The position numbers and the translations under genes are program-made. Below, in pieces: positions 7,415-35,564 of a DNA stretch of 64,000 bases. Origin of the DNA: Piscinibacter sp. (lineage in GTDB: Bacteria; Pseudomonadota; Gammaproteobacteria; Burkholderiales; Burkholderiaceae_C). The notes beneath the pieces are model-generated. The model had not been told where the DNA came from. It searched no databases and worked only from the letters and a program-made list of their open reading frames with translations. The DNA is taken from contig JAGOAS010000017.1 in NCBI GenBank assembly GCA_017983795.1, positions 38,163 to 102,162 on the forward strand. Reading direction: 5' to 3'. Every line of letters begins with the position of its first letter. The stretch's first letter is position 1.

Positions 7415-10400
7415 ATGAGCGCTGAGCTTCGGGCACAGCAGCCGGGCAGCGAGCCGCGCATGTTCGTGCTCGGCCCACCCGAGTTGCGCGCGGCCGCGGC
7501 GCCGGCATTCGCGCCCGAGCGGCGCTTTCAGCTGCTCGCCGTGCTGGCCGTGCGCTCGGGCCAGTGGATGACGCGCGACGAACTGGCGTCACTGCTGTGG
7601 CCCGAGCATGCCAACGCCGACGCGCGCCGCAACCTGCGGCACGTGATCTTCAAGGCGCGCGCGCTGCCGGGGGTTGACGGCATCGACGCGTCGGAGCACG
7701 CGTTGCGCTGGCGCGTGAGCACCGATCTGCTGGCCTTCGAGCAGGCCTGGTCGGAACGAGATGCGCTCGTGGCCAGCGCATGGCGTCGTGGTGCGCTGCT
7801 CGACGGCATCGACGATCCGGCCAATGCCGCGCTCGGCGAGTGGCTGGCAGCCGAGCGAGCGCGATTCGATTCCCGATGGCAACAGGCTGCGCACGCTGCG
7901 CTGGGCGCATCGACGACCGCGCCGCAGCGTGCCGACATCGCGCAGCGGCTGCTCGAGGTGGATCCGCTCGACGAGTCGGCGTTGAGCGCTTTGCTGCAAG
8001 CCGAGATGGCGCTCGGGCAGCGCGCCGCGGCCGAGCGCCGGTACCGCGACTACGCGCATCGGTTGGCCGCCGAACTCGGCGTCGAGCCCTCGCGCCGGCT
8101 GCGCGATCTGTTCGCGCCGACCGCCGTTGCGGCCGACACGTCGAACGCTGATCGTCGGGCACCGCCGGAGGCCGCGCTCTTCGTCGGCCGGCGCAGCGAG
8201 CTGGCCGAACTCAATGCCCTGCTCGCGACGGCCGAGTGCCGGCTGGTGACGATCATCGGCCCGGGTGGCATCGGCAAGAGTCGACTCGCGGCGCAGGCGC
8301 TGAGGCGCATCGCGACCGAGCCCGGCACCGGGGTCTGGATCGAGCTGCAGGACCTGAGCGAGGTCGCGGCGCTGAGCGCGCGGCTGGCGCAACGGCTCGG
8401 CGTGACGCTTGCCGATGCGCACGATCCGCTCGAGCAGATCGGCCGCCACGTGGGATCGGGCCGCCTGTGCTGCGTGCTCGACAACGCCGAACACCTGGCC
8501 GAGCTGCCGGCCTGGGTCGAGCAGTTGCTGGCCGCGGCGCCGTCGCTCGTGCTGCTCGTGACGTCCAGGTCGCGGTTGCACCTCGCCGCCGAACGGCCCT
8601 TCACGCTGACCGGCCTTGCAGTGCCCGACGAGGACAGCCGCGACCTCGAGGCGGCGAGTGCGTTCGATGCGGTGCGTCTGTTCGAGGCGCGGGCGGCGGC
8701 GGCTCAACGCGGTTTCGAGCTCGCGCGGCACCTGCCGGCGGTGATCGAGATCGTCGAGGCCACCGGCGGCATGCCGCTGGCCATCGAACTGGCCGCAGCC
8801 TGGGTGCGGCTGCTGCCGCCGGAGGAGATTGCACGCGAGCTGCGCGATTCGCTCGACCTGCTCGAGCGCGATCCGGCGTCGCCCGGCGCGCCGGCGCGGC
8901 CCGAGCATCGCAGCCTGCATGCGGTGCTCGAGCGGACCTGGCAACTGCTGGCGCCGGCCGAGCGCGACGCGATGGCGGCGCTGGCGGTGTGCCGCGGCGG
9001 CTTCACGCGGGCCGCGGCGGCTGCCGTGGCGGCTGCGCCGCTGCCGTTGCTGTCGTCGCTGGTCGACAAGAGCCTGCTCGCGGTCGACGAGAACGGCCGC
9101 TTCGGCATGCACCCGCTGATCGCGGCCGAGGCGGCGGCGCGGCTGGCGGCCGACGGCGCGCGCGGGCGAGCGTGCCGCGATCGGCATGCGGCGTACTTCG
9201 CGGAGCAACTGGAGACTCTGGTGCGGCGCGCGGGTGCCGACCATTCACCCGTGGCCGACGGCGTGGAGCACGACTTCGCCAACTGTGCGGCGGCGTGGAC
9301 GCACGCCATCGGCTGCGCGGCGGGCGGGCTGGTCGCGCGCAGCGTGGAGGCATGGCGCGTGTACTTCGAGTCGCGTGGCGAGCCGGCCCGTGGCGTGGCG
9401 CACTTCCGCGCGGCGCTCGGCGTCGTCGCGGCCGAGCGCGGGGGCGACGCGTTGGGTGCGCGACTGCGCGCCGCGCTGTCGCGGTTGCTCTACCGACAGG
9501 CCGACTTCGACGGCGCGCTGTCGGTGGCACGCACCGGTGCCGATCTGGCGCTGCGCAGCGGCGACCGCCGCGCGTTGGTCGCATGCCTGTCCAATGCCGG
9601 CAGCGCGCTGTGCGCGATGGGGCAGTGGACGCAGGCGAGGCAGCCGTTCGAGCACGCGCTGGCGATTGCGCGCGAGGACAGCGTAGCGGTCGAGATCGGC
9701 ACGGCGCTGACCAACCTGGGCATCGTGGCCAAGAAGGACGGGCGCTACGACGACGCGCTGAGCTGCTACGCGCAGGCCATCGACATCGAGCGCGAGCTCG
9801 GGCATCACATGGCCGTCGTGCGCTGCCTCAACAACATCGCCGGCGTGCACATGGAACGTAACCAGTGGGCCGAGGCGCGCCCGTTCATGGAGCGCGGGCT
9901 GCGTCTGTGCGAGCACCACCGGCTCGGCACGATGACGCCGTATCTCGCGTTCGGGCTCGGTGCCGTGCAATTCGAACTGGGCGATCTGGATCCGGCCGAG
10001 GCGCGCCTGCGCCAGGCGCTCGAACACGCGCGCAGTGGAGAGATCCCGGTGGTGGCCATCCTTGCCGAGGCCAACCTGGCGCGCGTCGCAGCGCGGCGCG
10101 GCGATTTCGTTGCGGCGGGCGAGCGGCTGGCGGCTGCAGCGCGCGAGGCGTCGGAGCGCGGCTGGACGAATCAGCTGCTGCACCAGGCGTTGTTCCTCGG
10201 CGAATGCTGCATGCTCGCCGGCGGGCGCGAACGCGCAGCGCGGCTGTGGCAGATGGTAGCGGCGCATCCGGGTTCGGAAGCCGGCCTGCGCGACAGCGCG
10301 CTGCGCTGGCAGGCCGCGCTGGCGCTGCCGAACGACGAACTGGACGCCGCACAACGCGACCCTCCGACGCTCGAGGCGACCGTGGATTGCCTGCTGCGCG

Positions 10401-10438
10401 GCGGCGACCTCGTCGACGCAGCCGGCGCCGTGCGTTGA
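7415..10438 (+). CDS. BTAD/SARP-type transcriptional regulator with NTPase and TPR domains
   Basis: A 1007-residue protein. Residues ~15-100 form an OmpR-like winged helix (TRDELASLLWPEHANADARRNL), and ~105-235 a bacterial transcriptional activator domain (BTAD; ALLQAEMALGQRAAAERRYRDY). An NTPase follows with Walker A GPGGIGKS at 282-289 and a Walker B-like CCVLDNAEHL near 354-363. From ~640 there are repeated TPR-like helices (ALTNLGIVAKKDGRYDDALSCY). This is the AfsR-like large SARP layout. SARPs bind 11-bp-spaced heptamers, and such heptamers flank the exported-protein operons 2 kb downstream. The start is ATG 7415 or the adjacent GTG 7412. The paralogue at 38741-41455 has the same order of domains. 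Confidence 0.9.
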   Translation: MSAELRAQQPGSEPRMFVLGPPELRAAAAPAFAPERRFQLLAVLAVRSGQWMTRDELASLLWPEHANADARRNLRHVIFKARALPGVDGIDASEHALRWRVSTDLLAFEQAWSERDALVASAWRRGALLDGIDDPANAALGEWLAAERARFDSRWQQAAHAALGASTTAPQRADIAQRLLEVDPLDESALSALLQAEMALGQRAAAERRYRDYAHRLAAELGVEPSRRLRDLFAPTAVAADTSNADRRAPPEAALFVGRRSELAELNALLATAECRLVTIIGPGGIGKSRLAAQALRRIATEPGTGVWIELQDLSEVAALSARLAQRLGVTLADAHDPLEQIGRHVGSGRLCCVLDNAEHLAELPAWVEQLLAAAPSLVLLVTSRSRLHLAAERPFTLTGLAVPDEDSRDLEAASAFDAVRLFEARAAAAQRGFELARHLPAVIEIVEATGGMPLAIELAAAWVRLLPPEEIARELRDSLDLLERDPASPGAPARPEHRSLHAVLERTWQLLAPAERDAMAALAVCRGGFTRAAAAAVAAAPLPLLSSLVDKSLLAVDENGRFGMHPLIAAEAAARLAADGARGRACRDRHAAYFAEQLETLVRRAGADHSPVADGVEHDFANCAAAWTHAIGCAAGGLVARSVEAWRVYFESRGEPARGVAHFRAALGVVAAERGGDALGARLRAALSRLLYRQADFDGALSVARTGADLALRSGDRRALVACLSNAGSALCAMGQWTQARQPFEHALAIAREDSVAVEIGTALTNLGIVAKKDGRYDDALSCYAQAIDIERELGHHMAVVRCLNNIAGVHMERNQWAEARPFMERGLRLCEHHRLGTMTPYLAFGLGAVQFELGDLDPAEARLRQALEHARSGEIPVVAILAEANLARVAARRGDFVAAGERLAAAAREASERGWTNQLLHQALFLGECCMLAGGRERAARLWQMVAAHPGSEAGLRDSALRWQAALALPNDELDAAQRDPPTLEATVDCLLRGGDLVDAAGAVR

Positions 10439-11076: not shown

Positions 11077-12003
11077 CTACTGGCAGGCACGAAGCGTCTC
11101 CCGGGCGGCGAGCGCGGCGGCCGCTTCGGTGGCGTTGAGCGCGCGCGTCTGACCCGAGCAGCACTTGTTGCCGTCCTCTGGCGGCACCAGGGAGTTCGCG
11201 GGCGCGCAGAAGAGGGCGAACTCGACGACGCCGGTGCTGTTGCCGCGGATGAAGTCCACGGTGCGGCGCCAGGACAGCCCCTTGGTCGTCAGGCGCACGG
11301 CCTTGTTCCACGCGGCGACGCAGGTCTGATCGCGCGCGGCCTCGGCCTGGTGCAAAGGGTCGAAGTCGCAGGTCATGCCGCTGCGGTGGCCGAAGCAGCA
11401 CTGGTCATGGTCCCAGCTGCCGCCGTTGATGAAGCAGACGCCGGCCCTGCACAGCGCGGCGCCGGGAATATCGGCCTGTGGCTGGCCGCATTCGGCGCCG
11501 ATGGCGCCGAAACAAAACTCCGTCTGCGCGATGGGGATCGCCGGCAGCGGCGACACGGAAGTCGTGACGGGAAGATCGCGGATTCGAGGGCGGGTCAGTG
11601 CGGAGTCGGGTCCAGTCGACGGGCACGACGGTCCGCCGGAGGCGGGGAGTGCCAGGTTGATCCGCAGCACGGACACACTCGGCGATGCCGGTGAAAACGA
11701 ATTCCGCGTTCCACGGCCCGACTGGTTCGCCGTTGCCACGAACGGTTCGCGAGGCACGGAGGCGAAGCGCACGTTGCCCTGGTTGTCGGTCGTGCCCTGG
11801 TTAAAGATGTTGGGAGCGTTGGTGATCCCGATGCAGACCGTGGCGTTGGCCACCGGAGCGCCGGCACGCGTGACGCGAACCGTCAGGCCGCCGAGCGGGT
11901 TGGCCGGCGGCGATTGTGCGGACGCGATGGGCGGCGCGATCGACAGCGCAGCGAGCACGCAGGCAGCATGCAGCCACGCCGTCCGTCTCGGTTTCTTGTT
12001 CAT
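11077..12003 (-). CDS. exported Cys-rich protein with a carboxypeptidase-regulatory-like N-domain
   Basis: 308 residues. The signal peptide ends near IASAQ (residue ~30). Residues ~35-110 (LGGLTVRVTRAGAPVANATVC, then GTTDNQGNVRFASVP) look like a transthyretin-like beta-sandwich of the CarboxypepD_reg type. The C-terminal half has about ten Cys, including FCFGAIGAECG, GSWDHDQCCFGHRSG and KCCSGQ, and should be disulfide-rich. GAGGAG precedes the ATG, which also overlaps (ATGA) the stop of a 40-residue upstream gene. Function unknown; export follows from the signal and Cys pattern. Confidence 0.75.
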   Translation of the reverse strand: MNKKPRRTAWLHAACVLAALSIAPPIASAQSPPANPLGGLTVRVTRAGAPVANATVCIGITNAPNIFNQGTTDNQGNVRFASVPREPFVATANQSGRGTRNSFSPASPSVSVLRINLALPASGGPSCPSTGPDSALTRPRIRDLPVTTSVSPLPAIPIAQTEFCFGAIGAECGQPQADIPGAALCRAGVCFINGGSWDHDQCCFGHRSGMTCDFDPLHQAEAARDQTCVAAWNKAVRLTTKGLSWRRTVDFIRGNSTGVVEFALFCAPANSLVPPEDGNKCCSGQTRALNATEAAAALAARETLRACQ

Positions 12004-12179: not shown

Positions 12180-12629
12180 CTAGCGAGTGGCGAGCCAGTT
12201 GACCGTGAAGCTGGCGGCCAGGCTCTCCGAGCCGTAGTACGCCCTGGCAGTGAACGTCTTGGATCGGATCTTGGCGACTGAACCGGAGGTGGTGACGGTG
12301 AAAGCGGCCCTGTCCTGGCCGGCCAGCACCTTCACGAACGGTGGCATGACGACACCGTTGAGAACGAAGCCAATGCCCTCGGTCGCCTGGGCGCCGTCCA
12401 GGCCGAGGCTTACTTGCATGTCGCTGGCCGCGGGGCGTGCCAACTTCACCGTACCGGTGAACTTGGTGCCTGCGACTGCGCTTGAAGGGCTGATGGTGAG
12501 GGTATTGAGCCATTTGACCGTCAGCCCCTGCGGCAGCTTGGTCACCGGCGTCTGGGCCTGTGCTGCGGGATGCAGGCTCGCGCCCAGCAGCAGGAAGGCG
12601 ATTGAGAGCAAACGCGAATTGCGGTTCAT
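12180..12629 (-). CDS. small exported Ig-like protein
   Basis: 149 residues. The signal peptide (LLSIAFLLLGASLHPAAQA) is cut near residue 25. The mature ~120 residues form one beta-rich domain (LTISPSSAVAGTKFTGTVKLARPA, FVLNGVVMPPFVKVL, SKTFTARAYYGSES) with the rhythm of a bacterial Ig-like fold and no Cys. A GGAAG ribosome site lies upstream. It is the first gene of the minus-strand operon, with a SARP-like promoter about 115 bp upstream. A role as an adhesive or structural exported domain is only inferred. Confidence 0.75.
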   Translation of the reverse strand: MNRNSRLLSIAFLLLGASLHPAAQAQTPVTKLPQGLTVKWLNTLTISPSSAVAGTKFTGTVKLARPAASDMQVSLGLDGAQATEGIGFVLNGVVMPPFVKVLAGQDRAAFTVTTSGSVAKIRSKTFTARAYYGSESLAASFTVNWLATR

Positions 12630-12744
12630 GAGTTCTTCCTTTCATTCAAGACACTCCAGACACGGACTCGGCAAATCGCCGGGTCATCGCGGTCATGGCA
12701 CTTCCTCGCATCGGTCTCACACGACCGAATGACCCAGGCGGTCA

Positions 12745-12776
12745 ACCATAGAGCGCGGGCGTTTGCTCAGCGTTTG
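12745..12776 (-). promoter_or_regulatory. SARP-type promoter driving the minus-strand exported-protein operon
   Basis: Read on the minus strand, CAAACGC heptamers lie at 12770-12776 and 12759-12765 (11-bp period, TGAG between). They are followed by exactly 8 bp and then TATGGT at 12745-12750, a good -10 hexamer. Heptamer direct repeats 8 bp upstream of -10 are the known layout of SARP (BTAD regulator) sites. The 18-bp block is the exact reverse complement of the block at 12809-12826. Confidence 0.7.
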
Positions 12777-12808
12777 CCGGTGGCGCGCAGCCCGCCAGCG
12801 TGCGCCGA

Positions 12809-12840
12809 CAAACGCTGAGCAAACGCCCCGCCGATAGCGT
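12809..12840 (+). promoter_or_regulatory. SARP-type promoter driving the plus-strand exported-protein operon
   Basis: CAAACGC at 12809-12815 and 12820-12826, then 8 bp, then TAGCGT at 12835-12840. The same geometry and almost the same sequence recur at 24565-24596. A transcript from here would begin near 12847, just before an in-frame ATG at 12850 whose GGAGG would lie upstream of the transcript. This supports ATG 12913 as the start of the first gene. Confidence 0.7.
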
Positions 12841-12912
12841 GGAGGTGCGATGCAAGCCACAGCGGCACACAGCGACAACAAGCCCCGTCGATCACCTCAG
12901 AGGAGAGCGAAC

Positions 12913-14259
12913 ATGAGTCATCCTTGCCTTGCCGAACCAGCGAATCGCGCGTCATCGACGCGGCGCATCGCCGCAGTCCTCGCAGCACTGGCGGCCGCGG
13001 CCGCGTGGCTGCCCGGAACCAGCGTGGCGGCCGTCGAGTTCGTCACGACGGTGGGCACGTGCAACAAGGTGGACACACCAAGCGACGGCAAGGACCTGTC
13101 GGTCCAGGCCGGCAACAACCTGCGCTTCGAAGTCTGGGGCGACGGCATCGACGTCAATCCGTCGGTCCGCTGGACGGTCGACGGCGGCCCCAACGACAAC
13201 CTCGTCACGGCGCGGATCGTGAAGCCGCACAGCGGCGTCGAGAACCTGGGCCGCGGCTGCAGGATCGCCAAGGGTTCGGTGGAAGTGGAGGTGGACTCGC
13301 CCGACGAAGCCGGGGCGACTCGTCAGCGCTCGCTGTGGTTTCGCATGCCGCTGGGCGACGAGTCGCGTCTGCAGATGCGCGTGGTGCCGTTCCGCACGCC
13401 CGTGTGGACATTTGCGGATGAGCGTCCGGCACAGGGGGCGGCATTCTTTCGACGGGCTCTGACACAGAGCCCCGCCGATTGCCTGACCAGGAGCGGCGGT
13501 ACCGTGGTGCGGGATCTCAATGATACGCGCATGACGATCACGCTGCCGCCGGGCGCCAACGGTGACACGAGCAACTGCACGCTGGAATTCAGGACCAGCG
13601 TCAGCCCGGCGGATAGCCCCGAGATCGATATCCAGCAGGAGTTCGGCTACACCGTGAGCTCGCCGGCGCACATGAGGCTGGTCAGCGGCGATAACAGGGC
13701 CGCGGGGGCACTGGCCACGCGAGTCATTCGGTTCACCGGGGACGTGGCCAACATCCGCAACACACGAGCCACGCGCACGTCGACGCTGACGATCGCCACA
13801 CCCAATCCAAACAGGGCCGACACGCTGACGCTGGTGATCAACCCGCCGGCGACAGCGAACGGATTCGCGCAGGGTTGCGTGTGCCGCAACGCGCAGACCG
13901 GCGACACCATCAACGTGAACGACCTGTTCCAGTGCGAGCTCCGGCTCGCGCAGCCGCCGGCGGCAGCAGGTCAGCTTGTCAGCATCGAGGCACAGGACCG
14001 GATGTGTGTGGCCGCCGGCTCGAACGACGTGACCTACAGCAGCGCGAGCGGCTTGGGCAGTTTCAACGCACCAGCGACTGGCACGTTCCACTCGATTCCG
14101 TTCCGTGCGAACGGTGGCAACACCTCGGTGAATCCGCCCACGCCTTGCGCCAGCCGCACGTCACCGGTGGCGCACACGCTGAAGTTCTGGGTCGGTCAAC
14201 GTGGAGCGGCGTCGGGGCAGGCCTACACCCAGTGCCAGATCCGGATTCGCCAGCCATAG
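12913..14259 (+). CDS. large exported protein of unknown function
   Basis: 448 residues. The N-terminus has a STRRIAAVLAALAAAAAW signal segment cut near SVAA (residue ~40), possibly Tat-type. The mature protein is beta-rich with scattered Cys pairs (VGTCNKVDTPSDGKD, GCVCRNAQTGDTINV, FQCELRL) and several repeats of Ig-like rhythm. AGGAGAG upstream fixes ATG 12913; an in-frame ATG at 12850 lies too close to the predicted transcription start. It opens the plus-strand operon with the secretin-like lipoprotein and the CARDB protein. The family is not recognised. Confidence 0.75.
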   Translation: MSHPCLAEPANRASSTRRIAAVLAALAAAAAWLPGTSVAAVEFVTTVGTCNKVDTPSDGKDLSVQAGNNLRFEVWGDGIDVNPSVRWTVDGGPNDNLVTARIVKPHSGVENLGRGCRIAKGSVEVEVDSPDEAGATRQRSLWFRMPLGDESRLQMRVVPFRTPVWTFADERPAQGAAFFRRALTQSPADCLTRSGGTVVRDLNDTRMTITLPPGANGDTSNCTLEFRTSVSPADSPEIDIQQEFGYTVSSPAHMRLVSGDNRAAGALATRVIRFTGDVANIRNTRATRTSTLTIATPNPNRADTLTLVINPPATANGFAQGCVCRNAQTGDTINVNDLFQCELRLAQPPAAAGQLVSIEAQDRMCVAAGSNDVTYSSASGLGSFNAPATGTFHSIPFRANGGNTSVNPPTPCASRTSPVAHTLKFWVGQRGAASGQAYTQCQIRIRQP

Positions 14260-14316: not shown

Positions 14317-16113
14317 ATGCACCTCGCACTTCGTTCATTGCCGCGATCGGTGATCCGGGCCCCGCGCCAGATGACCGCGACCGCGGCGGCCCCGATGGCC
14401 AGCCTGGCCGTGCTGATCGCCCTCGCAGGCTGCGCCACGCCGGGGCCGGCGGGCCTCGCGCCGCCCGCGAGCGGGCCGGGCGGGCGCAACGCGATTGCCG
14501 CCGCGCTGCACGACGGCAAGCCCGACGCGGCGCGCAAGCTGCTCGCCTCGGCGCTGAGAGCCGAACCGCGCAACGGCTACCTGCATCTGCTCAACGGGCT
14601 GACCTATCAACTCGCCGACCCTTCGCCGCAGTCGGCCGAGCTGGCGCAGGTGGGCTACGACGCCGCAGTGAAGTTCGCGCCGGGCTACTTCTGGTCGCAC
14701 TACTATGCCGGCCTCGCCAAGTTCCAGCAGCAGGACTACTCGGCAGCGGCCGAGGAGTTCTCGTGGGCGATCCTCGACCGGCCCGATCAGCCGCAGGCAT
14801 TCGCGGGCCTGGCCGCGGCGGCCTACTATGCCGGTGATCTGGGCGTCGCGCGCCTGGCCGCCGAGAGGGCCATGGCGCTGGCACCCGAAGACCCGGCGGC
14901 GCTGCGGTCGGTCGCGTATGTCGCGGCCGCCAGCGGCGACGAGGGGCAGGTGACCCAGCTGACCCGAAAGGCGCGATCGCTGTCGCCCAAATCGGGTGGA
15001 CTCGTGGCCGACCAGTCGCGCCTCGCGCTGCTGCTGCGCACCGCGGCGGCCGAAGGGCCGGCGCAGCGTGGTGGCGCCCAGCTGACCCAGGCGCAGCCCG
15101 CCTCAGGCGACGCGCAGCCGGCCTCCAGTGACGCGCAGCCACCGGCGGGCGTCGCGCAGCCACCGGCCGGCGACACACCGTCGACGGCGTCGAACCTGCA
15201 GCAGGTGATGGTCGAGGTCACGCTGCTGCTGAGCCAGACGGCAACCACCGACACCGTCGGCATCAACCTGCTCGACGGGCTGAAGCTGCAGTTCAGCGGC
15301 GACAACAGGACCACACGCAACCACGCCACGGGAGCGGCCGACACCTTCAGCCGCGTGATCACGTCGGCGCTCGGTGTGCCGCAGATCACCTACAGCCTGA
15401 ACCTCTTCAACACGCACGACGACTTCTACGATGTCGTCGTGCGCCCGTCGCTCGTGGCCTCGCTCGGCCAGCAGTCGGAGTTCTTCATCGGGCGCAACCT
15501 GAGCGTCAGCGTCAGCGGCATCAACGCGGGCGCGCTGCAGACGATCGACGTGGGCACGTCGGTCAAGCTCACGCCGCTCGAGATCACGGCCGAACGCACG
15601 AAATTCCGCGTCGACACCGTGCGCTCGTTCTTCGTGCCCACGTCCAGCGGCACGTTCGCGCAGTCGGTCACCACGTTCAAGCAGACCGTCGGCGCGACGG
15701 CCGAGGTCGAATTCGGCAAGACGCTGATCCTCTCCGGGTTGTACGAGGCGGTGAACGTGGGGTGGACCTCGAAGGTGCCTGTGCTCGGCGACATTCCGAT
15801 CGGCAACCTGCTGTTCAACGAGCGCTCCAAGACCCAGAACCGCGATGCCGCGATCGTGCTCGTGACTCCGCGCCTGACGGGCACGCTGGACACCGACAGC
15901 CACGAGTTCCGCGCCGAGACGCTGAAGCGACTGTTGTCGCTGTGGAAGGACGTGGTCGAACCGCTGGCCAGTACCGACGCGTTGACCGAAACGCTCCGGA
16001 AGAAGACCTTGAGGCACTTCAGGCCGCAAAGCGGCGATCTGACGCTGCCGGCTGCAGCAGACCCGGCGACGGCCCGTCTGGCGATCGGCGACACGTTGGG
16101 GCGCTTGAGGTAG
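14317..16113 (+). CDS. secretin-like outer-membrane lipoprotein with TPR domain
   Basis: 598 residues. A lipobox LAGC (Cys39 from ATG 14317, or Cys21 from ATG 14371) follows a hydrophobic stretch. Residues ~60-245 are TPR-like helices (SAAAEEFSWAILDRPDQPQAFAGLAAA). Residues 259-286 are a 4x7-residue AQP repeat linker. Residues ~290-540 match the secretin core: VMVEVTLLL, VEFGKTLILSGLYE, then VPVLGDIPIGNLLF and AAIVLVTPRL. Secretins form outer-membrane gates for type II/III secretion or type IV pili, but no other machinery gene is present. It may gate or pilot the exported proteins encoded beside it (inference). Confidence 0.85.
   Translation: MHLALRSLPRSVIRAPRQMTATAAAPMASLAVLIALAGCATPGPAGLAPPASGPGGRNAIAAALHDGKPDAARKLLASALRAEPRNGYLHLLNGLTYQLADPSPQSAELAQVGYDAAVKFAPGYFWSHYYAGLAKFQQQDYSAAAEEFSWAILDRPDQPQAFAGLAAAAYYAGDLGVARLAAERAMALAPEDPAALRSVAYVAAASGDEGQVTQLTRKARSLSPKSGGLVADQSRLALLLRTAAAEGPAQRGGAQLTQAQPASGDAQPASSDAQPPAGVAQPPAGDTPSTASNLQQVMVEVTLLLSQTATTDTVGINLLDGLKLQFSGDNRTTRNHATGAADTFSRVITSALGVPQITYSLNLFNTHDDFYDVVVRPSLVASLGQQSEFFIGRNLSVSVSGINAGALQTIDVGTSVKLTPLEITAERTKFRVDTVRSFFVPTSSGTFAQSVTTFKQTVGATAEVEFGKTLILSGLYEAVNVGWTSKVPVLGDIPIGNLLFNERSKTQNRDAAIVLVTPRLTGTLDTDSHEFRAETLKRLLSLWKDVVEPLASTDALTETLRKKTLRHFRPQSGDLTLPAAADPATARLAIGDTLGRLR
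15091..15174 (+). repeat. four 21-bp tandem repeats coding the secretin-protein linker
   Basis: Four in-frame 21-bp units, each starting GCGCAGCC, encode a seven-residue AQPAxxx motif (AQPASGD, AQPASSD, AQPPAGV, AQPPAGD). They form a flexible proline-rich linker between the TPR and secretin parts. Copy number may vary between strains. Confidence 0.85.
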
Positions 16114-16316
16114 TGCGGGGCGTGGACAGGGCCTCGTGCCGGCGCAGCCTCGGGGGAGGCCCGATTACCCGGCACGCCATGCATGGGGACTGCATCGATG
16201 AGGGGAAGACCCTGTACTTCCGGTGCCAAAGGGGTTGGGGCTCGGGCCGTGAAGCTCGCGCGCCGCGATGGCGGCGCCGTGCCGGGGGCAAGGCCAACGG
16301 ATTGCAGAGGCGGACC

Positions 16317-16553
16317 ATGAACGAACCTCGGTTGTTTCTCGTGCGGGTCTGGCAACACCTGAGCCAGTTCCGCGCCGCCGTGCGCGGCCTGGACCAGGAC
16401 GAGCCGCGGCTGTTCCACGAAGCGCAACAGCTCGGCGAGTTCTTCCGCGCGGCGAGCGAGGCCGGGTCAGCAGCGCCGGCCGAACGCACGGCAGGCGAGC
16501 CTGGCGAAGCGACGAGCGCATTCGAACCGAAGAAGCCGGAGAGTCGACCGTGA
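16317..16553 (+). CDS. small acidic protein, unknown
   Basis: 78 residues starting MNEPRLFLVRVWQHLSQFRAAV, then a helix-prone Glu/Asp/Gln-rich middle and a polar Ala/Glu/Pro tail. It has no signal peptide or Cys, so it is probably cytoplasmic. AGAGG lies eight bases before the ATG; an in-frame ATG at 16180 would add an Arg-rich stretch that looks non-coding. It sits between the secretin-like gene and the CARDB gene on the same strand, so a role as an accessory or regulatory peptide of this operon is possible. Confidence 0.6.
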   Translation: MNEPRLFLVRVWQHLSQFRAAVRGLDQDEPRLFHEAQQLGEFFRAASEAGSAAPAERTAGEPGEATSAFEPKKPESRP

Positions 16554-16618
16554 ACGCGCGCGCGCCGTGCGCGGGGGCGGCCCCATTCGAGAGCAACGGC
16601 GCAAGAAAGGAGACGGCC

Positions 16619-18034
16619 ATGATGGCTGCTTGCAGGCACACAGATCGACGCGGTTTCCCGGCAATCAGCGGGCGGGCGAGCCGGCGGGCCGCGCTGGCGG
16701 CGGCATTCGCCGCGGCGGCGATGCTGGCGCCCGGGCTTGCCCGTGCCCAGTCGGACCTCGCGGTCACGATCACGCAGGGAACCGCCAACCCGGTGCCCAC
16801 CGGTGCGCCGGTGACCTACGCCGTGACGGCGCGCAACATCGGCACCGCGCAGTCGTCGCCGGTGCAGGTTCGCCTCGAGCTGCCCACCAGCCTCACCACG
16901 CCGACCGCCAGTGGATCGGGGTTCACCTGCAGCTCGAGCACCGCCGGCACGTTGCGCACCTTCAGCTGCTCGAGCGGCGTCCTGGCCAGCAACCAGTCGC
17001 GTTCGCTGTCGTTGTCGGCCACGGCGCCGGGCACGATCAGCGGCGACAGCCAGACGCTCACGGTCAAGGCCATGGTCAACCCCAACGACCTGGCGCGCGA
17101 GCAGGGCCGCACGGCCAACAACACCGCAACGGTGTCGACCGTCGTCCAGACGCTGCCCGATCTGGCACCCTCGTGGGCGGGGTCGAGCACCACTGCCAGC
17201 CCAGGGGCCGACCTGATGTTCGAGCTGACGCTGCGCAACATCGGCAACCGCGCCTCGGGCGACGCCGTGCTCAAGGTGAGCATCCCGGTGGGGCAGCTCA
17301 GCTTCAGCCGCTTTGCCAACAGCCAGTTCGACGGCGGATGCAGCCCGCCCGATGCGCAGGGCAAGTTCACCTGCCGGACGTCGACCGTGCCGGCAGGCGG
17401 CTCCCGGCGTGTGCAGATTTGGAGCAGGACAAACAACCTGCTCGAAGGCGGCGACAGGCTGCTCTCGCAGGCCACCGCGGAGCTTCGGATCGGCCTGCCC
17501 TCACTGACTCCAACCGGCGGCAGGACGGCGGCAGAGGTTCGACCCTTGGGCACTTCGGAGCGCAACGAGCGCAACAACACCTCCAGCCTCGTCACCACCG
17601 TCAGCCCCAGCGTCGACCTGCAGGTGGAGCTCGCGCGCTCGAGGGTGTTCAACTGCGGCGACCGGCGCACGGTGGAGCTGGTCTATCGTGTCAGCAATCG
17701 GGGGTCGGGAACCACCACCCGGAACACGCAGCTCCAGGTCGCCAGGAGCAGCGCCTGCGGTCTCAACGCCTACCTGTCCACTGGAGTCGCCGGCTGTTTC
17801 TGCCTGACGTCGACTCTGCCGGAGCACCACGCCCAGAACTGCAGCTTCGGCGCGACCAGCCAGACCTGCCCGATCAACACGCTGGCCGCCGGCGCAACGC
17901 GCGAGTTCACGCTTTACGTCGAGGGCGCCGCGGGGCAGAACAGCGTCCAGGTTCAGGCCACGGTGGACCCCGCCAACGTGCTGCCGGAGAGCAACGAGCA
18001 GAACAACCAGATCGCCACCACGCACCCGCTGTAG
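16619..18034 (+). CDS. exported protein with CARDB/DUF11-type repeats
   Basis: 471 residues. A long signal with SRRAALAAAFAAAAMLAPGLARAQ (residues ~22-45) suggests Tat or Sec export. Three beta-sandwich repeats follow (~50-165, ~172-325, ~335-465), each ending in the CARDB/DUF11 signature: EQGRTANNTATVST, SERNERNNTSSLVTT and LPESNEQNNQIATTH. Such domains are cell-surface or adhesion modules. AAAGGAG precedes ATG 16619. It closes the plus-strand operon of island A. A CARDB protein also occurs in island B (34186-35430), one of several parallels between the islands. Confidence 0.85.
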   Translation: MMAACRHTDRRGFPAISGRASRRAALAAAFAAAAMLAPGLARAQSDLAVTITQGTANPVPTGAPVTYAVTARNIGTAQSSPVQVRLELPTSLTTPTASGSGFTCSSSTAGTLRTFSCSSGVLASNQSRSLSLSATAPGTISGDSQTLTVKAMVNPNDLAREQGRTANNTATVSTVVQTLPDLAPSWAGSSTTASPGADLMFELTLRNIGNRASGDAVLKVSIPVGQLSFSRFANSQFDGGCSPPDAQGKFTCRTSTVPAGGSRRVQIWSRTNNLLEGGDRLLSQATAELRIGLPSLTPTGGRTAAEVRPLGTSERNERNNTSSLVTTVSPSVDLQVELARSRVFNCGDRRTVELVYRVSNRGSGTTTRNTQLQVARSSACGLNAYLSTGVAGCFCLTSTLPEHHAQNCSFGATSQTCPINTLAAGATREFTLYVEGAAGQNSVQVQATVDPANVLPESNEQNNQIATTHPL

Positions 18035-24564: not shown

Positions 24565-24596
24565 CAAACGCTGCGCAAACGCCGCCCAGGTAGCGT
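24565..24596 (+). promoter_or_regulatory. SARP-type promoter upstream of the large lipoprotein gene
   Basis: CAAACGC at 24565-24571 and 24576-24582, then 8 bp, then TAGCGT at 24591-24596. Spacing and hexamer are identical to the promoter at 12809-12840, 11.8 kb away, and similarity continues into the following bases (GTGCAG against GTGGAGG). The ATG of the lipoprotein lies 58 bp past the hexamer. Confidence 0.7.
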
Positions 24597-24654: not shown

Positions 24655-26904
24655 ATGAGGGGCATCAAGGCACTGTTGGCGTTGTCATTGACGGGATTGC
24701 TCGCTGCCTGCGGCGGCGGCGGCAGCTCGACTGCCGAGCCCGATCCGGCGGTGGCCAAGGTCGAGATCCGCGAGACCGGCGCGCTGCTCACGGCGGCGGG
24801 GGCCAACCGGCAGCTGAGCGCCGTGGCTACCGATGCGCAAGGGCGTGTCGTCGACGTCGAGTTGACCTGGAGCTCGTCCAATGCCGCCGCGGTCGCGGTG
24901 GACGGCAAGGGCCAGATCACGGCCGCCGCTGGCACCGGCTCGGCACAGATCACCGCCGAGGCCAAGGGCGTGCGCTCGACCCCGCTGCTCGTGGCGGTGG
25001 TGACACCGCCCGCGGGTGCCATGCTGCTCACCGACGCCCAGATCGTCGGCGACCCGGTGGAGACCGACCCAAACGCCGCACCGAGCTTTGCCAACACCTA
25101 TCGCGTCGTGCTCAGCGGCATGGTCGCACCGGCGGTAGGCCAGTTGCTGATCAATACCGAGTCGAAGTCGGTGGCCGGTGAAGTGGTCGCCGTCGACAGC
25201 TCTGGCGGCACGCATACCGTCACGCTGAAGCTGGTGTCGGCTCGCGTGCTGTTTCCGAATCTGAACCTGAGCGAGACCTTCGACCTGTCGCGCGCGCCGG
25301 TGGAGTTCCCGGCCGAGCTGGCGGCGAAGTACGACATCACCCGCATCGGCAACACCTTCACCTTCACGCCCAGGCCTGGCGCGTTCGACGCGGCCACGCT
25401 GCGCGAACGTGCACTGGCGGCCACCGGCACTCGTGCGCTGCCGCCGTTCACCTCGTGCGACACGTCGATGACCTTCGCCGGCACCCCACTGCCGATCGCG
25501 CTCTCGGCGCCGCCGCTGTTCAGCATCACGATCAACCCGTCGCTCGACGTGCTGTACACGCCGGCCAACGGGCTCGAGCGCTTCGTCGTGCAGGCCGAAC
25601 CGGTGGTCAGGGTCGAAGGCGGGCTGAACGTGACCGCCGCCTTCGAAGGCAAGATCGACTGCAAGCTCGAGCTGTTCGTCTTTCGCGTGCCGGTGGGCGG
25701 TGCGCTGTCGCTGATCGTCGGCGGCCTGGTGCCGGTGGGCGTGGGGCTGGAGGCCGGCGGCAAGATCACCGTCGCGACGATGGGCATCGGCAGCAAGGTC
25801 GAGGCCAAGGCGAAGGCGCAGGTCGGGCTGGCGTGCCCGAACGGCGCGAACTGCGAGTTCGTGCGCTCGCTGGGCGACTTCGGTCTGACCTACACACCGA
25901 CCGTCGACCTGCCCAGCATCGGCGACATCCGCGTCGAGCCCACGCTGATGGCCTACGGCTACGTCAAGGCCGAGATCGGCAATCCGTTCCTGCGGCGGAT
26001 CCGCTTCGAGGCTTTCACCGCGCGCGCCGGCGGCAAGCTCGCCAGCAGCTTTGCGCCGATGATCAGCCAGATCGCCGACACCGGCTACAAGTCGGACTAC
26101 AAGGTCTCGCTGGAGGCCAGCGCCGGCGTCGGGGCGGACCTCGAAGGCGCGCTGAGCCTGCTGGGTTTGAGCGGCGTGTCGGCATTGGAACTGACGATCA
26201 GCAACGACATCGCCAAGTCGCCTTCGGCGACGGTCACGGCCAACCAGGTCACGTTCAGGGCCGGCGACACGGTGCGCTTCAACGTGCACGTCGACCCGGC
26301 AAGCAAGGACTTCTTCCCGGGCATCGGACCGTACAACATCAGGGAGGTGCTGCTGGTACGCAAGAACGGTCTGGACACAACGGTGGTTGGCAGCGCCACC
26401 GCAGCGGCCCCGCAGACCGAGTTCACGATCCCCTTCGCCGCCACGGACTTCGGCTCAACCAGCGAGTTCACCGCCTTCGTCGTGACGACGCTGATGCCGG
26501 CGCGGTTGGCGGCGCTCGAGCTGGGTCAGCCGGCAACCGTGGTGCTGCTGGAAGGCGATTGGCTGGCGGTCTGGACGTGCGTGCTCGACCATCCCGACGA
26601 TCCGCCGGGTTCGCCGTGCGACTGGTGGTATCGCCTCGACGTGACGCCGCGGGCCGTGACGAAGAACGCCAGCGGCGGCTTCGATCCCGTTCCCGGCCTG
26701 AGCGTCGCGGTCAACGGCGATGCCTGCATCGCGGCAACCGGCAGCGGCCAGACCACGGATGCGCAAGGGCGGTTCGCGATGTCGATGGCGCCGGCAAGCT
26801 TCGCCCCGTCGTGCTACGACGGCGGCAAGGTCCATCTCGTCCTGAGTGCGGAGGGTGGAGGCACGATGTTCGAGACCGACCTCAAGTTCGACCTGGAGGA
26901 TTGA
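24655..26904 (+). CDS. large Ig-like lipoprotein
   Basis: 749 residues. A lipobox LLAAC (Cys19) is followed by GGGGSS. Residues ~35-115 form a Big_2-type bacterial Ig domain (RQLSAVATDAQGRVVDVELTWSSSN, then TAAAGTGSAQITAEAKG). The long middle is beta-rich and lacks recognised motifs, and the C-terminal part has Cys-containing loops (VWTCVLDHPDDPPGSPCDWW). AGGAGA precedes the ATG. It is a probable outer-membrane surface protein, expressed from its own SARP-like promoter and therefore a likely member of the island A regulon. Confidence 0.8.
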   Translation: MRGIKALLALSLTGLLAACGGGGSSTAEPDPAVAKVEIRETGALLTAAGANRQLSAVATDAQGRVVDVELTWSSSNAAAVAVDGKGQITAAAGTGSAQITAEAKGVRSTPLLVAVVTPPAGAMLLTDAQIVGDPVETDPNAAPSFANTYRVVLSGMVAPAVGQLLINTESKSVAGEVVAVDSSGGTHTVTLKLVSARVLFPNLNLSETFDLSRAPVEFPAELAAKYDITRIGNTFTFTPRPGAFDAATLRERALAATGTRALPPFTSCDTSMTFAGTPLPIALSAPPLFSITINPSLDVLYTPANGLERFVVQAEPVVRVEGGLNVTAAFEGKIDCKLELFVFRVPVGGALSLIVGGLVPVGVGLEAGGKITVATMGIGSKVEAKAKAQVGLACPNGANCEFVRSLGDFGLTYTPTVDLPSIGDIRVEPTLMAYGYVKAEIGNPFLRRIRFEAFTARAGGKLASSFAPMISQIADTGYKSDYKVSLEASAGVGADLEGALSLLGLSGVSALELTISNDIAKSPSATVTANQVTFRAGDTVRFNVHVDPASKDFFPGIGPYNIREVLLVRKNGLDTTVVGSATAAAPQTEFTIPFAATDFGSTSEFTAFVVTTLMPARLAALELGQPATVVLLEGDWLAVWTCVLDHPDDPPGSPCDWWYRLDVTPRAVTKNASGGFDPVPGLSVAVNGDACIAATGSGQTTDAQGRFAMSMAPASFAPSCYDGGKVHLVLSAEGGGTMFETDLKFDLED

Positions 26905-26976: not shown

Positions 26977-27008
26977 CAAACGCTGAACAAACGTGATGCA
27001 GCGGCTCG
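26977..27008 (+). promoter_or_regulatory. divergent copy of the heptamer pair
   Basis: CAAACGC at 26977-26983 and CAAACGT at 26988-26994 keep the 11-bp period and the TGAA spacer. The hexamer expected 8 bp further (GGCTCG, 27003-27008) is a poor -10. The site is close to the gene's ribosome site (GGAGG, 27017-27021). It may be a weak or alternative promoter, or an operator only. Confidence 0.5.
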
Positions 27009-27027: not shown

Positions 27028-27582
27028 ATGAGGAAACCATCTTTCGCGTCTTTGGCGGGTGATCGTCGGTCGTGGCTGCAGGTGACAGCCGCGGCGGTGC
27101 TTGTTGCATGGCTCGCTTGGTCTGCAGTGCCATCCCGGGCCGCCACGAAACCGGACTGGACGGCTTTCAGCGCAACCTTGGCGGGCACGTTCAGCCTGTC
27201 TGGCGACGTCGGCAAATCGGTACTCTTCGCGGTGCAGGAGTCAGGGACAGGCAACGCCCAGGCCGCGCTTGTGTTCACGTACAGGCTGTCCGTGCTGCAA
27301 AACCTGGCGCACGTACCGTCGGGCTGCGGCCCGTCCAGTTCGAGCGCAGTGGACGGGTTCGGCGTGCTTTCGTTCACCGATGGCGACGTGACGTTGAGGC
27401 GTGTCGCAGGAACCTCGTGTTTCGCGTTTCCGACGATCAACGTCGAAGAGCAGTGGGTCGTCAGCAGCGGGACGGGACGCTACGTTGGCGCGAGCGGCGT
27501 TCTCTGGCGCCAGATGATCGGCGACGTGCGCTTCGGCAGCACGAGCGGAAGCCTGCAGGGCATGATCAAGTTCGTTCGGTGA
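27028..27582 (+). CDS. small exported protein, unknown
   Basis: 184 residues. A signal peptide with hydrophobic core VTAAAVLVAWLAWSAV is cut near SRAA (residue ~39). The mature part is beta-rich (SATLAGTFSLSGDVGKSVLFAVQ, GFGVLSFTDGDVTLRRV, GSLQGMIKFVR) with two Cys and recalls small calycin-like exported proteins, without a firm match. GGAGG precedes ATG 27028, and a divergent CAAACGC pair lies just upstream, linking it to the island A regulon. Confidence 0.7.
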   Translation: MRKPSFASLAGDRRSWLQVTAAAVLVAWLAWSAVPSRAATKPDWTAFSATLAGTFSLSGDVGKSVLFAVQESGTGNAQAALVFTYRLSVLQNLAHVPSGCGPSSSSAVDGFGVLSFTDGDVTLRRVAGTSCFAFPTINVEEQWVVSSGTGRYVGASGVLWRQMIGDVRFGSTSGSLQGMIKFVR

Positions 27583-27649: not shown

Positions 27650-28090
27650 TCAGCCGAGATCGCCCGCGATGTAGTGCTCCAATTGATGGATGATGAATTC
27701 CTGCTCCGAGATGATGTCCTTCACCAGGTCGCCGATCGAGACCAAGCCGATCAGGTTGCCGCCGTCGACGACCGGAAGGTGACGCAGCCGTCGGTCTGTC
27801 ATCAGTGCCATGCATTCCTGGTTGGTGTGGTGCGGGTGCACGCATTGCACCGGCGCATGCATGATTTCGCGCGCCGCCGTTCGCTCGAACGACCGGCCGG
27901 ACTGCGCCATCTTGCGGGCGATGTCGCGCTCCGTCACGATGCCTACGACGCGCTCGGCTTCCACTACCAACAGCGCCCCGATGTTCTTGCGCTCCATCAG
28001 CGACGCAGCGTCCCGCACCGAGGTCATCGGATCGATGCTGTGCACTGACTGATCAGCCTTCGACTTGAGGATTTGCACGACGCTTTTCAT
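27650..28090 (-). CDS. CBS-domain protein
   Basis: 146 residues made of two CBS motifs: ~10-65 (HSIDPMTSVRDAASLMERKNIGALLVV, then VGIVTERDIARKM) and ~75-130 (MHAPVQCVHPHHTNQECMALMTDRRLRHLPVV, then LIGLVSIGDLVK). Stand-alone CBS pairs bind adenine nucleotides and act as energy or redox sensors in the cytoplasm. GGAGG precedes the ATG. The C-terminal helix SEQEFIIHQLEHYIAG is typical of this short CBS group. It stands alone here. Confidence 0.92.
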   Translation of the reverse strand: MKSVVQILKSKADQSVHSIDPMTSVRDAASLMERKNIGALLVVEAERVVGIVTERDIARKMAQSGRSFERTAAREIMHAPVQCVHPHHTNQECMALMTDRRLRHLPVVDGGNLIGLVSIGDLVKDIISEQEFIIHQLEHYIAGDLG

Positions 28091-28658
28091 GTTGCCTCCG
28101 GATGGTCGCGCGGCACGGGCCGACGATGATTTCCCCGTTGCCATACTGCGCCACGGGGCGCACGAAATCCAAGCAATCGCCGGGGCGTCCGGAACTGACC
28201 TCCGCTTGGGTCGCAGGGCGAACTGTCCACTGGGAGGGCGTGCCGCCACGGCATCGCAAGGCTGCGTCGGTCGTTTGAGCCGAAACAAGGAAATCGCCGC
28301 GCGCCGCGACGACAGTACTCCTCTGCAAGGCACGCGGGTCCTCGCGGCTGCGGCCGCGGCGTGCCGCGCCGCATCGACCCACGACTCGATCCGCTGCACC
28401 GCATGCTCACGCGACAACCTGATCGATCCATCCTCGCCGGCCGCCCCCGAATCGATCGGGCGACGGCGGCGCCGAACGCCGGCCCGACGCGCCGGCCGTC
28501 GGACGCACTCGATTTCCACGGCCCCCCGGCGCGACGCTGAGGCGCCGCGCGTCGCGCGGCGCTGCCGATCCGCGGTCGCCGTCCACGCACGGCAGTCGCC
28601 AAGTGCCCACGTGAGGCGGGTGATACCGCTTCTTCATCCCCTCTTTCGCATCGCCACC
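28091..28658. other. 568-bp stretch without a convincing gene
   Basis: Open frames exist on both strands but are Arg/Pro/Ala-rich with no coherent fold pattern. No tRNA, heptamer pair or long inverted repeat was seen. The left edge should hold the CBS gene promoter and the right edge the promoter of the radical SAM gene. Confidence 0.4.
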
Positions 28659-29834
28659 ATGGATGAACCGATCACGCTTCACCCCACGCAGGCGCCGGCC
28701 CGCGATCCCGCCGCCGACGCCATCGCTGGCCACCGCGTCGAACTCCAGCTGCTGACGACGCTGAAGTGCAACCTCAAGTGCACTTACTGCTCGCTCGGCG
28801 TCGGCGAGGTGCTGGGCTCGCAGACCGAGGTGCGCTACGGTATCGACGAGCTGGCGCGCTTCGCCGAGACGCACCTTGCGGGCAAGGAGGTCTACGTCAC
28901 CTTTTACGGGGGCGAGCCGACGCTCAACCGCTCGATGATGCAGCAGGTGATGGAGCGCTTCGCGCATTGGCGCTTCCAGCTACAGACCAACGGCACGCTG
29001 CTCGACGACGTGCCTGCAGGCGTGCTGGCGCGGCTGTCGAACGTGCTCGTCTCGATCGACGGCGGCGAACACATCACCGACGGCTACCGCGGCAAGGGCA
29101 TCTACCGCCAGGTGCTGAAGAACCTCGAGCGCGTGCACCGCCTGATCGGCGGCACCGTCACCGCGCGCGTCACCTGGGGCAACCCGGCGACGACCTTCGA
29201 GGAGCTCGACGCCCTGGTGGCCGACGGCTCGCCGTTCGATTACCTGTACTGGCAGTTCGTCGCCGACGAGATGTACGCCGGCGACTCGGTGGCGCGGCGC
29301 GAGCAGGTGCTGGTGCGGCTGATCGAGCGCTTCTTCGCGCGCACCGATCGGCTGTATCCGCTGATCCCGCTGATGGGCATCGTGCGCAACAAGCTGCTGC
29401 CGGGCCGCGCGCAGGAGCTGTACGGCGGACGCACGCAGTGCCGCGTGTCGTCGCACCTGCTCAACGTGATGCCCGACGGGCAGATCTATCCGTGCCCCGA
29501 CATGATGTACGTGCCGCAAATGCTGATGGGCAGCGTCAAGGGCAACTGGCTGAAACCGAGCCCGCTGCAGCACACCGACGCGATGCCGTGCCGCGACTGC
29601 GAGGCCTGCGCCTGGTGCCGCGGCAACTGCATGAAGAACCTGTACCTCGGCTACGTGAAGAACGACCTCAGGTACCGGCACAACGTGGTCGAGCCGATCT
29701 GCAGCCTCGTGCGCTTCGTCGGGCGCGAGATCGACCGCCACGACCCGCAGGCCTGGTTCGCCCGGCTGCCGGTGCCGCTGCGGCGGCAGCTCACCGACTG
29801 CGAGGTGTACGAGTACGTCGAGGTGATGCCGTGA
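28659..29834 (+). CDS. radical SAM/SPASM-type enzyme
   Basis: 391 residues. The radical SAM cluster motif is LKCNLKCTYC (Cys-x3-Cys-x2-Cys, ~residues 38-45), followed by FYGGEPTLN. A Cys-rich C-terminal part resembles a SPASM/twitch domain that binds extra Fe-S clusters: RTQCRVSS, YPCPDMMYV, MPCRDCEACAWCRGNCMKN and EPICSL. Such enzymes modify peptides or mature sulfatases; no sulfatase or obvious precursor peptide is adjacent. The start is ATG 28659 (MDEPITLHPTQ). It overlaps the MaoC-like gene by 4 bp (GTGA), implying a joint function. Confidence 0.88.
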   Translation: MDEPITLHPTQAPARDPAADAIAGHRVELQLLTTLKCNLKCTYCSLGVGEVLGSQTEVRYGIDELARFAETHLAGKEVYVTFYGGEPTLNRSMMQQVMERFAHWRFQLQTNGTLLDDVPAGVLARLSNVLVSIDGGEHITDGYRGKGIYRQVLKNLERVHRLIGGTVTARVTWGNPATTFEELDALVADGSPFDYLYWQFVADEMYAGDSVARREQVLVRLIERFFARTDRLYPLIPLMGIVRNKLLPGRAQELYGGRTQCRVSSHLLNVMPDGQIYPCPDMMYVPQMLMGSVKGNWLKPSPLQHTDAMPCRDCEACAWCRGNCMKNLYLGYVKNDLRYRHNVVEPICSLVRFVGREIDRHDPQAWFARLPVPLRRQLTDCEVYEYVEVMP

Positions 29835-30787
29835 GCCGCCATGCGCCACGCGACCGACCCGAGCGGCCGCCGACGGGGCCAGTTGCCGCGCAGGTGCGGC
29901 ACCTGCGGCGACCGCCCGACGCGCGACTGTTCATGGCGCGCGCGTTCCTGCCCAAGAAGAAGCACCGCCTCGAGCTGCCGGCCCTGACGCTGCGCCTGGC
30001 GCCTGCCGTTGCGCCCGCAGCCGACCTCGAGGCCTATCGGGTGCTGACGGGCCAGCGCGCCGGCACCGCTCTGCCGCTGGCCTGGCCTCAGGTGTGGGGC
30101 TTCCGGCTGCAGATGGCGCTGCTCACCGATCGGCGGTTTCCGCTGCCGATCTGGAGCGCGCTGCAGGTGCGCAACCGGCTGCTGCAGCACGAACGCCTGG
30201 CGGCCGCGGAACCCTATGCGATCACCGTGCAGCCCCACGCGCTGCGCCGTCTCGACAAGGGCGTGGAGGTCGACCTGCACTGCGCGCTGCACGACCGCCG
30301 CGATCGGTTGGTGTGGCAGAGCCTGAGCACGTTCTACTGGCGCGGCCGCGGCAGCACGCAGCCCGATGAGCCGTCCTTGCGCGCCGCGAGCCCGGTGCTC
30401 GACGCCGGCGCAGCCGAGGCCGGTCGCTGGCCGTCGGGCCAGGGTTCGGGCTGGCGATTCGGAGCGCTCACCGGCGACTACAACGGCCTGCACTGGAGCG
30501 ACCGCTACGCGCGCGTGTTCGGTTTTCGGCGTGCGTTCCACCATCCGCCGCGCATCGCCGGGCAATGCCTGGCCCACCTGGCGCTCGACAACGAGGCGCC
30601 ACGGCAGCAGCTCGATCTGTGGATCAAGGGCCCGGTGTTCTACGGCAGCGAGCTCGTGCTGCGCCGGCAACGTACCGGCGATGCCGAATTCTTCGCGCTG
30701 TATGTCGATGCCGATCCGCGAGCGGCCCTGGTCGGCCGTTGGGCACCCGCCGACGCCTCGATCGCGCTCGACGACCTGCGCGTGTAG
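29831..30787 (+). CDS. MaoC-like hot-dog fold protein
   Basis: 318 residues. The C-terminal half contains the MaoC/hydratase-2 signature DYNGLHWSDRYARVFGF near residue 220 (family pattern D-x-N-P-x-H, here with Gly for Pro), then HHPPRIAGQCLAHL. The N-terminal half (~60-190) looks like a degenerate second hot-dog domain, as in double-hot-dog dehydratases. The expected reaction is hydration of an enoyl thioester. The start is a GTG overlapping the radical SAM gene's stop. An in-frame ATG at 29933 is the alternative if the Arg/Pro-rich N-terminus is not translated. Confidence 0.75.
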   Translation: MSRHAPRDRPERPPTGPVAAQVRHLRRPPDARLFMARAFLPKKKHRLELPALTLRLAPAVAPAADLEAYRVLTGQRAGTALPLAWPQVWGFRLQMALLTDRRFPLPIWSALQVRNRLLQHERLAAAEPYAITVQPHALRRLDKGVEVDLHCALHDRRDRLVWQSLSTFYWRGRGSTQPDEPSLRAASPVLDAGAAEAGRWPSGQGSGWRFGALTGDYNGLHWSDRYARVFGFRRAFHHPPRIAGQCLAHLALDNEAPRQQLDLWIKGPVFYGSELVLRRQRTGDAEFFALYVDADPRAALVGRWAPADASIALDDLRV

Positions 30788-30854
30788 ACCGGCACGGCGG
30801 GTAACGTGATGACCTCGCCGACCTCGCCGGGCCCGGCCTCGGCGCCGCGCTCGT

Positions 30855-30941
30855 CGAGCCTGGCTCACCCGGTTGTCGCGGTGGCTGCCGCGGCCGCTCA
30901 CCGACCGCGAAGTGCACCACTACGTTGAGATGATGCTCCGA
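30855..30941 (+). pseudogene. remnant resembling the radical SAM protein's C-terminus
   Basis: This stretch encodes RAWLTRLSRWLPRPLTD followed by REVHHYVEMMLR. It lines up with the last residues of the radical SAM enzyme 1 kb upstream (QAWFARLPVPLRRQLTD, then CEVYEYVEVMP). The frame around it is Arg-rich and broken by stops, so only a fragment remains. It suggests an old tandem duplication of the radical SAM gene that later decayed. Confidence 0.55.
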
Positions 30942-30998
30942 TGCGCGGCGCCGCTGCCGCGCGCCTGCGCGACGACGCCGGCCTGCGGCGCGAGCCGC

Positions 30999-31382: not shown

Positions 31383-31461
31383 GGCGCATCGTCGCACGGT
31401 CGCGGACAAGCCTCCGTCGGGCGAACCGGCCTAGACGTCGCGCGCTGTTTGCCCGCGGGCC

Positions 31462-31955: not shown

Positions 31956-31962
31956 TGCAGCC

Positions 31963-35552: not shown

Positions 35553-35564
35553 CGCATCCTCCGT

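Follow-up and report, generated by a model that had tools for sequence, protein, structure and literature searches.

Two copies of an 18-bp block, CAAACGCTGAGCAAACGC, lie back to back at 12759-12776 (minus strand) and 12809-12826 (plus strand) of the window (the whole 64,000-nucleotide stretch of Piscinibacter DNA that was analysed), both with 0 mismatches. The arrangement is real and conserved, and the explanation that best fits the sequence comparisons is a set of SARP promoters for an AfsR-like regulator that occurs outside the actinobacteria. That the two blocks would be back-to-back sites for the AfsR-like protein encoded at 7415-10438, through which it would activate the neighbouring exported-protein genes, is given a probability of roughly 0.83. 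Most likely, Burkholderiaceae have a lineage of large activators of the SARP type that governs adjacent genes, which here would be those for exported proteins and a secretin.

Each block holds two CAAACGC heptamers with an 11-bp period, and 8 bp separate the end of the second from a −10-like hexamer. For box 1 (12759-12776), which faces the minus-strand operon, this hexamer is TATGGT (12745-12750, minus strand), and for box 2 (12809-12826), which faces the plus-strand operon, it is TAGCGT (12835-12840, plus strand). The exact inverted repeat, the heptamer period and the 8-bp spacing to TATGGT and TAGCGT had all been pointed out in the earlier note, and they were borne out on both strands. Two near-copies overlooked there are present further along the plus strand. 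Box 3 (CAAACGCTGCGCAAACGC, 24565-24582) has 1 mismatch, is followed after 8 bp by TAGCGT (24591-24596) and precedes a lipoprotein gene. Box 4 (CAAACGCTGAACAAACGT, 26977-26994) is degenerate, with 2 mismatches and no −10-like hexamer at 8-9 bp, and its function is doubtful. At up to 3 mismatches CAAACGCTGAGCAAACGC has 4 matches in the window against a mean of 0.09 in shuffles. A consensus sigma-70 scan of 12640-12920 gave no promoter, a result that is hardly informative because the shuffles also yielded none.

By eye, the proteins encoded in either direction have signal-peptide-like N-termini, as had been claimed. On the minus strand the first gene past box 1 encodes an exported 149-aa protein (12180-12629), and the second (11077-12003) an exported protein of ~308 aa with a weak CarboxypepD_reg match; the start of the second gene is inferred because its L006 orthologue comes directly after its box. 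The first gene past box 2 encodes exported protein B (12913-14259, plus strand), which has no Pfam or NCBIfam match and for which the predicted fold has a mean pLDDT of 39.7. Downstream of B, and adjoining it, is a lipoprotein (14317-16113, plus strand) that combines TPR repeats with a secretin domain. The presumed target of box 3 is a lipoprotein with a Big_2-like domain (24655-26904, plus strand), whose relatives in genomes G382 and G320 come after a regulator gene and a box. Past box 4 is an exported 184-aa protein (27028-27582, plus strand). Near this box and protein is also a radical SAM/SPASM protein (28065-29834; TIGR04084-like, below cut-off), which could form a peptide-modification pair with the 184-aa protein.

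The predicted binder of the CAAACGC boxes is a large SARP (AfsR-like) regulator with winged helix-turn-helix, BTAD, NB-ARC/AAA and TPR regions (7415-10438, plus strand). Its BTAD domain, placed after the winged helix, matches PF03704 with 46.4 bits against a cut-off of 22.1. AAA_22 and TPR_12 are above cut-off in the C-terminal part, the NB-ARC match is slightly below (23.1 vs 23.5), and the winged helix matches Trans_reg_C at E 5.4e-4, below its cut-off. The start is probably ATG 7415, since the alignment of homologues sets in at about residue 169 of the 1176-aa ORF. When a profile of 23 homologues was compared with PDB entries, AfsR (8hvr) came top (E 1.2e-4) and EmbR next (3.8e-4); the alignment to the two begins at the winged helix and spans the entire SARP region of AfsR. 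A single-sequence phmmer search of PDB with the regulator gave no match, and against the AfsR equivalog NCBIfam NF053617 it scores 38 bits, far below the cut-off of 1430. With its BTAD, NTPase and TPR regions, and the match of its homologue profile to AfsR, the protein answers to the large BTAD regulator that had been placed nearby in the earlier note.

Relatives were found in Burkholderiaceae and Ideonella records. At 1e-20 there is a regulator match in 110 of 399 family genomes, many of these matches being to the NTPase-TPR part only and uninformative on the SARP head; paralogues were missed in this survey because two candidates per genome were scored. For G100, which has an 86% identical locus, the regulator search yields no more than a C-terminal part at 53% identity and a middle part at 37%, which counts against the reading. 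The former is in a locus of 2880 bases, where it and a relative of the DUF11 protein at 16268-18034 are arranged tail to tail. In a class-wide draw, the regulator has a match at 1e-25 in 3 of 204 non-family genomes, and under the box rule applied to them the 3 loci (3.9-4.0 kb each) are boxless. An Ideonella genome has a second regulator copy (G320:C6:140771-143752, L074) with one in-frame TGA, the DNA-binding part of which is very close to that of the copy at 439494-442436.

Heptamer conservation in orthologous loci had been set beforehand as a refutation test, and both boxes and spacing proved to be kept in L006, L007, L008 and G147, save that one of the three L008 boxes has no −10. The first three came from a search with protein B, with best-segment identities of 86% (L006), 69% (L007) and 54% (L008, Ideonella). 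Exact boxes stand upstream of B or its neighbour in each of them (three, two and three, respectively), and TANNGT is present at 8-9 bp in 7 of the 8. When the sequences preceding B are aligned, neither heptamer varies, and apart from GGAG and the start codon few other blocks are invariant. The window, G382 and G320 share the box with its TA..GT frame ahead of the Big_2 lipoprotein. Two divergent back-to-back pairs are present in G147, and the start-to-start distance of one is 50 bp, as in the window. Over 19 CAAACGC sites in 5 genomes TANNRT is at 8 bp in 13, at 9 bp in 4 and missing in 2, and the latter, box 4 and one G320 box, count against the reading. (G101 and G382, like G102 and G320, were judged by identical coordinates to be the same genomes, and each was counted once.)

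The boxes are confined to few places. The genome as a whole (4,244,547 bases, 45 contigs) has three exact heptamer pairs, none of them outside the window, and when up to 3 mismatches are allowed the 18-mer matches once elsewhere, with 3 mismatches. In the 399 family genomes exact CAAACGCTNNNCAAACGC is present at 23 places in 13 genomes, with 0 for the reversed control. Fourteen of these places are in G000, G147, G320 and G382, the genomes with a clear regulator orthologue, and in all fourteen TANNRT follows at 8-9 bp. The other 9 places, singletons elsewhere in the family, were rejected as sites, 9/9 being without a −10 at 8-9 bp when read by eye. The difference in −10 presence between the two groups has a Fisher p of 1.2e-6, and while the heptamers of CAAACGCTNNNCAAACGC were taken from the window, so that their identity is due to selection, the −10 is outside the pattern. 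The full pattern, AAACGCNNNNSAAACGSN{8,9}TANNGT, has 17 matches in 8 of the 399 genomes (reversed control 0), and 16 are on the same contig as a regulator homologue: 13 at <5 kb, 1 at 14 kb and 2 at 30 kb. The distance of 30 kb between two G382 boxes and the regulator counts against the reading. The 17th match (G016, L139) was rejected as a site; it is inside a reading frame that by eye resembles purF. Of the 8 full-pattern genomes, seven belong to the 110 that have a regulator match (p 6e-4). That 103 of these 110 are without AAACGCNNNNSAAACGSN{8,9}TANNGT counts against, many of the matches there being the NTPase-TPR part alone. Co-occurrence of the boxes with homologues of 7415-10438 across the family supports the view of the earlier note that the layout would be that of SARP sites.

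Related heptamers emerged from a scan of 33 loci (577,396 bases; 29 around regulator homologues and 4 around other BTAD genes), one of which, L138, was known in advance to carry a CAAACGC pair. A motif-free count of 7-mers was made in two sets of 16 and 14 loci, divided by rough kinship, with L113, L114 and L118 excluded. The top period-11 7-mer by loci was GAAACGC in the first set (5/16; 6 cases, and none at seven other periods); in the second it was GGAACGC (6/14; 8 cases vs 1 at other periods). GGAACGC pairs mostly have CACAGT in place of TANNGT. For the class [CG][ACG]AACG[CG] the 33 loci have 30 pairs at gap 4 vs 22 summed over the twelve other gaps 0-12, a count that is partly circular because the class was derived from the same loci, with the gap and spacing peaks unaffected. 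The reversed class gives 1 pair at gap 4 and up to 13 at codon-like gaps. After the 30 gap-4 pairs [TC]ANNGT is at 8 bp in 3 cases, at 9 bp in 15, and at none of 16 other spacings in the range 2-19; the 12 pairs without a strict hexamer count against. The placing of the pairs is directional. Twenty-four are <500 bp from a regulator match (distances being to the tblastn match end rather than the gene end), and 24/24 point away from it, either past the 3′ end or divergently from the 5′ end, while of the remaining 6 one is inside a regulator and 5 are farther off. A strict pair is found in 20 of the 33 loci, and the 13 that are without one count against, though some have near matches and two end shortly past the regulator match.

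The pattern GGAACGSNNNNGSAACGSN{8,9}CACAGT has 19 matches in 12 of the 399 genomes (control 0), and 12/12 belong to the 110 in which the regulator has a match. Thirteen of the matches have a regulator at a distance of 35 bp to 4 kb, in the loci that supplied the pattern; of the other 6, 2 are just 3′ of further homologues and 4 have none in ~1.5 kb. GAAACGC-type sites (L110, L111, L119, L120 twice, L121, L122, L127) lead in 7/8 cases to lipoprotein-like or exported proteins, and several GGAACGC sites to hydrolase-, methyltransferase-, cysteine-synthase-like or small proteins, all these names resting on N-termini read by eye without family search, with the automatic gene choice unsure in some rows. 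In the second regulator group, predicted GGAACGC-type SARP promoters are back to back at L137, 4339 (minus strand) and 4382 (plus strand). Others are at L128, L130, L132 and L133, with hydrolase-, methyltransferase- and cysteine-synthase-like targets (by eye). At L117, 1678 (plus strand), near another BTAD gene in G100, there is a GTAACGC pair with TAGAGT at 8 bp; GTAACGC is a possible fourth heptamer class.

The heptamer classes can be set beside the recognition residues of the regulators. With AfsR numbering checked against the residues named in the available part of PMC10936776, AfsR R87-T88 align to the conserved N-L-R-[HK] of the lineage and R92 to a variable position. Regulators of CAAACGC sites have H88 and K92 (6/6), those of GAAACGC sites have K88 and are without K92 (8/8), and those of GGAACGC or GCAACGC sites have K88 and R92 (10/10), the heptamer labels being assigned by nearness. 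Of the two L127 regulators, one may not go with the site. L138 (CAAACGC pair, N88), L124 (near-match, T88), L115 and L116 were excluded as doubtful. If the −10 occupies −12 to −7, heptamer base 1 would be at −38, the contact base of AfsR R92. On a regulator tree of 41 rows, 17 of them unlabelled, the CAAACGC class requires 1 change, GGAACGC 1 and GAAACGC 2. Descent alone could be sufficient for the residue-heptamer pattern, because the class changes on the tree are few.

SARP targets, in the available part of PMC10936776, have repeats 11 or 22 bp apart with the final repeat 8 bp from the −10. The same part has the SARP dimer contacting sigma region 4, and the NOD and TPR being inhibitory with ATP relieving the inhibition. 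For the window, binding, dimer geometry, activation and signal control are deduced from sequence as follows. Two neighbouring protomers would cover the two heptamers, which are one helix turn apart, and would take the place of a −35 element. The bound SARP would recruit RNA polymerase to the poor −10 hexamer 8 bp downstream, and this recruitment would switch on the two divergent exported-protein operons together with lipoprotein 24655 and perhaps gene 27028. The NTPase-TPR part probably holds the 7415-10438 protein off until a signal is sensed.

The window has another BTAD cluster. A second BTAD-AAA_16 regulator (38741-41455, minus strand), with relatives in G382, is part of a same-strand cluster within 31963-41455 that also holds a CsgG-like lipoprotein (35565-36302) and a CARDB protein (34186-35430). 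Its gene is 26 kb off, and in G382 the gene-B boxes (54.8-55.2 kb) are closer to its relative (67.4 kb) than to the AfsR-like gene (85.0 kb), so that this protein, or an unrelated factor, might be thought to bind the boxes, with the linkage to the 7415-10438 family being hitchhiking. This is unlikely. The region 29500-43500 around the second BTAD gene is without an exact period-11 heptamer repeat, and the protein was rejected as the box regulator; the boxes follow the AfsR-like family over genomes and paralogues, often at <500 bp, and heptamer class tracks the tree of that family.

Location of the box over the −35 region would be equally fitting for repression, with the AfsR-like regulator binding the same boxes to block weak promoters. 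Such a role is decidedly improbable, as no −35 hexamer is seen, the −10 is poor, the fixed 8-9 bp phasing suits polymerase contact and not steric block, and BTAD is the activation domain in characterised SARPs (PMC7040171, in the part available). Very little weight attaches to the possibility that the 24-nt inverted repeat (arms 12757-12780 and 12805-12828, 96% complementary with a 24-nt gap) is a hairpin or the palindromic operator of a dimeric repressor, because single boxes, non-inverted at 24565 and in relatives, retain the same geometry: the direct-repeat period is constant with the −10 at 8-9 bp, while the presence and distance of a partner box vary. Chance or a mobile repeat element is the most remote of the explanations, for though pattern singletons exist in other genomes and CAAACGCN4CAAACGC (middle bases free) is found in 12 of 100 relatives with 3 for its reversed control, the 4 window matches exceed the shuffle expectation of 0.09, two stricter patterns give 0 control matches in 399 genomes, and the boxes are kept down to 54% protein identity.

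Activation by the AfsR-like regulator is, then, the preferred reading, and a broader one may be built on it with odds somewhat better than even. Burkholderiaceae would have an expanded set of self-linked AfsR-type STAND activators, as a rule with outward SARP promoters beside them. The heptamers, ending in AACGC but differing between members (CAAACGC, GAAACGC, GGAACGC), would be matched to the recognition helices, and the promoters would constitute insulated switches for surface or exported proteins and, separately, for a set of enzymes.

SARPs are exclusive to actinobacteria according to the available part of a review (PMC10972967), and to actinomycetes according to that of PMC7040171, where the proteobacterial SMCOG1041 matches are mostly without HTH or BTAD. 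The proteobacterial set with putative regulator, boxes and targets close together contrasts with these statements, as far as the available parts of PMC10972967 and PMC7040171 go. Among the matches listed from the open-licence literature no paper could be recognised as describing a SARP-type regulon from a proteobacterium. With putative regulator, boxes and targets close to one another in proteobacteria, the SARP mechanism could be tested on a beta-proteobacterial polymerase. Targets of an otherwise uncharacterised regulator group can be predicted by the linkage rule, and the way in which heptamer and recognition helix vary together provides a natural data set for SARP specificity.

The closest known system is AfsR of Streptomyces coelicolor (8hvr, 8jke, 8k60), in which the order wHTH-BTAD-NTPase-TPR is the same as in 7415-10438. 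Its sites, in the accessible parts of the literature, are direct repeats 11 bp apart with the 3′ repeat 8 bp from the −10 (here 8 or 9), and, within the same parts, a box over the −35 region is common to AfsR sites and those of the window. In contrast to AfsR, the host here is a proteobacterium, the heptamers end in AACGC, and the boxes are near the regulator and would drive exported proteins, with enzyme-like genes in another clade. Unlike the actinobacterial SARPs in general, the relatives are from Burkholderiaceae and Ideonella, and the predicted targets are exported proteins in place of secondary metabolism. The small SARPs (ActII-ORF4, DnrI, RedD) likewise use heptamer repeats at promoters, often with 4-bp spacers in the parts of the literature available, but they are without NTPase and TPR regions and are actinobacterial. 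HilA, which with EilA and YgeH forms an enterobacterial group, also binds a direct repeat near −35, its box being composed of direct hexamers at target promoters, and it is not known to have an NTPase part. Like the putative activator of the window, HilA of Salmonella is, in the available parts of PMC7232297 and PMC4210603, a proteobacterial activator of the OmpR/ToxR family.
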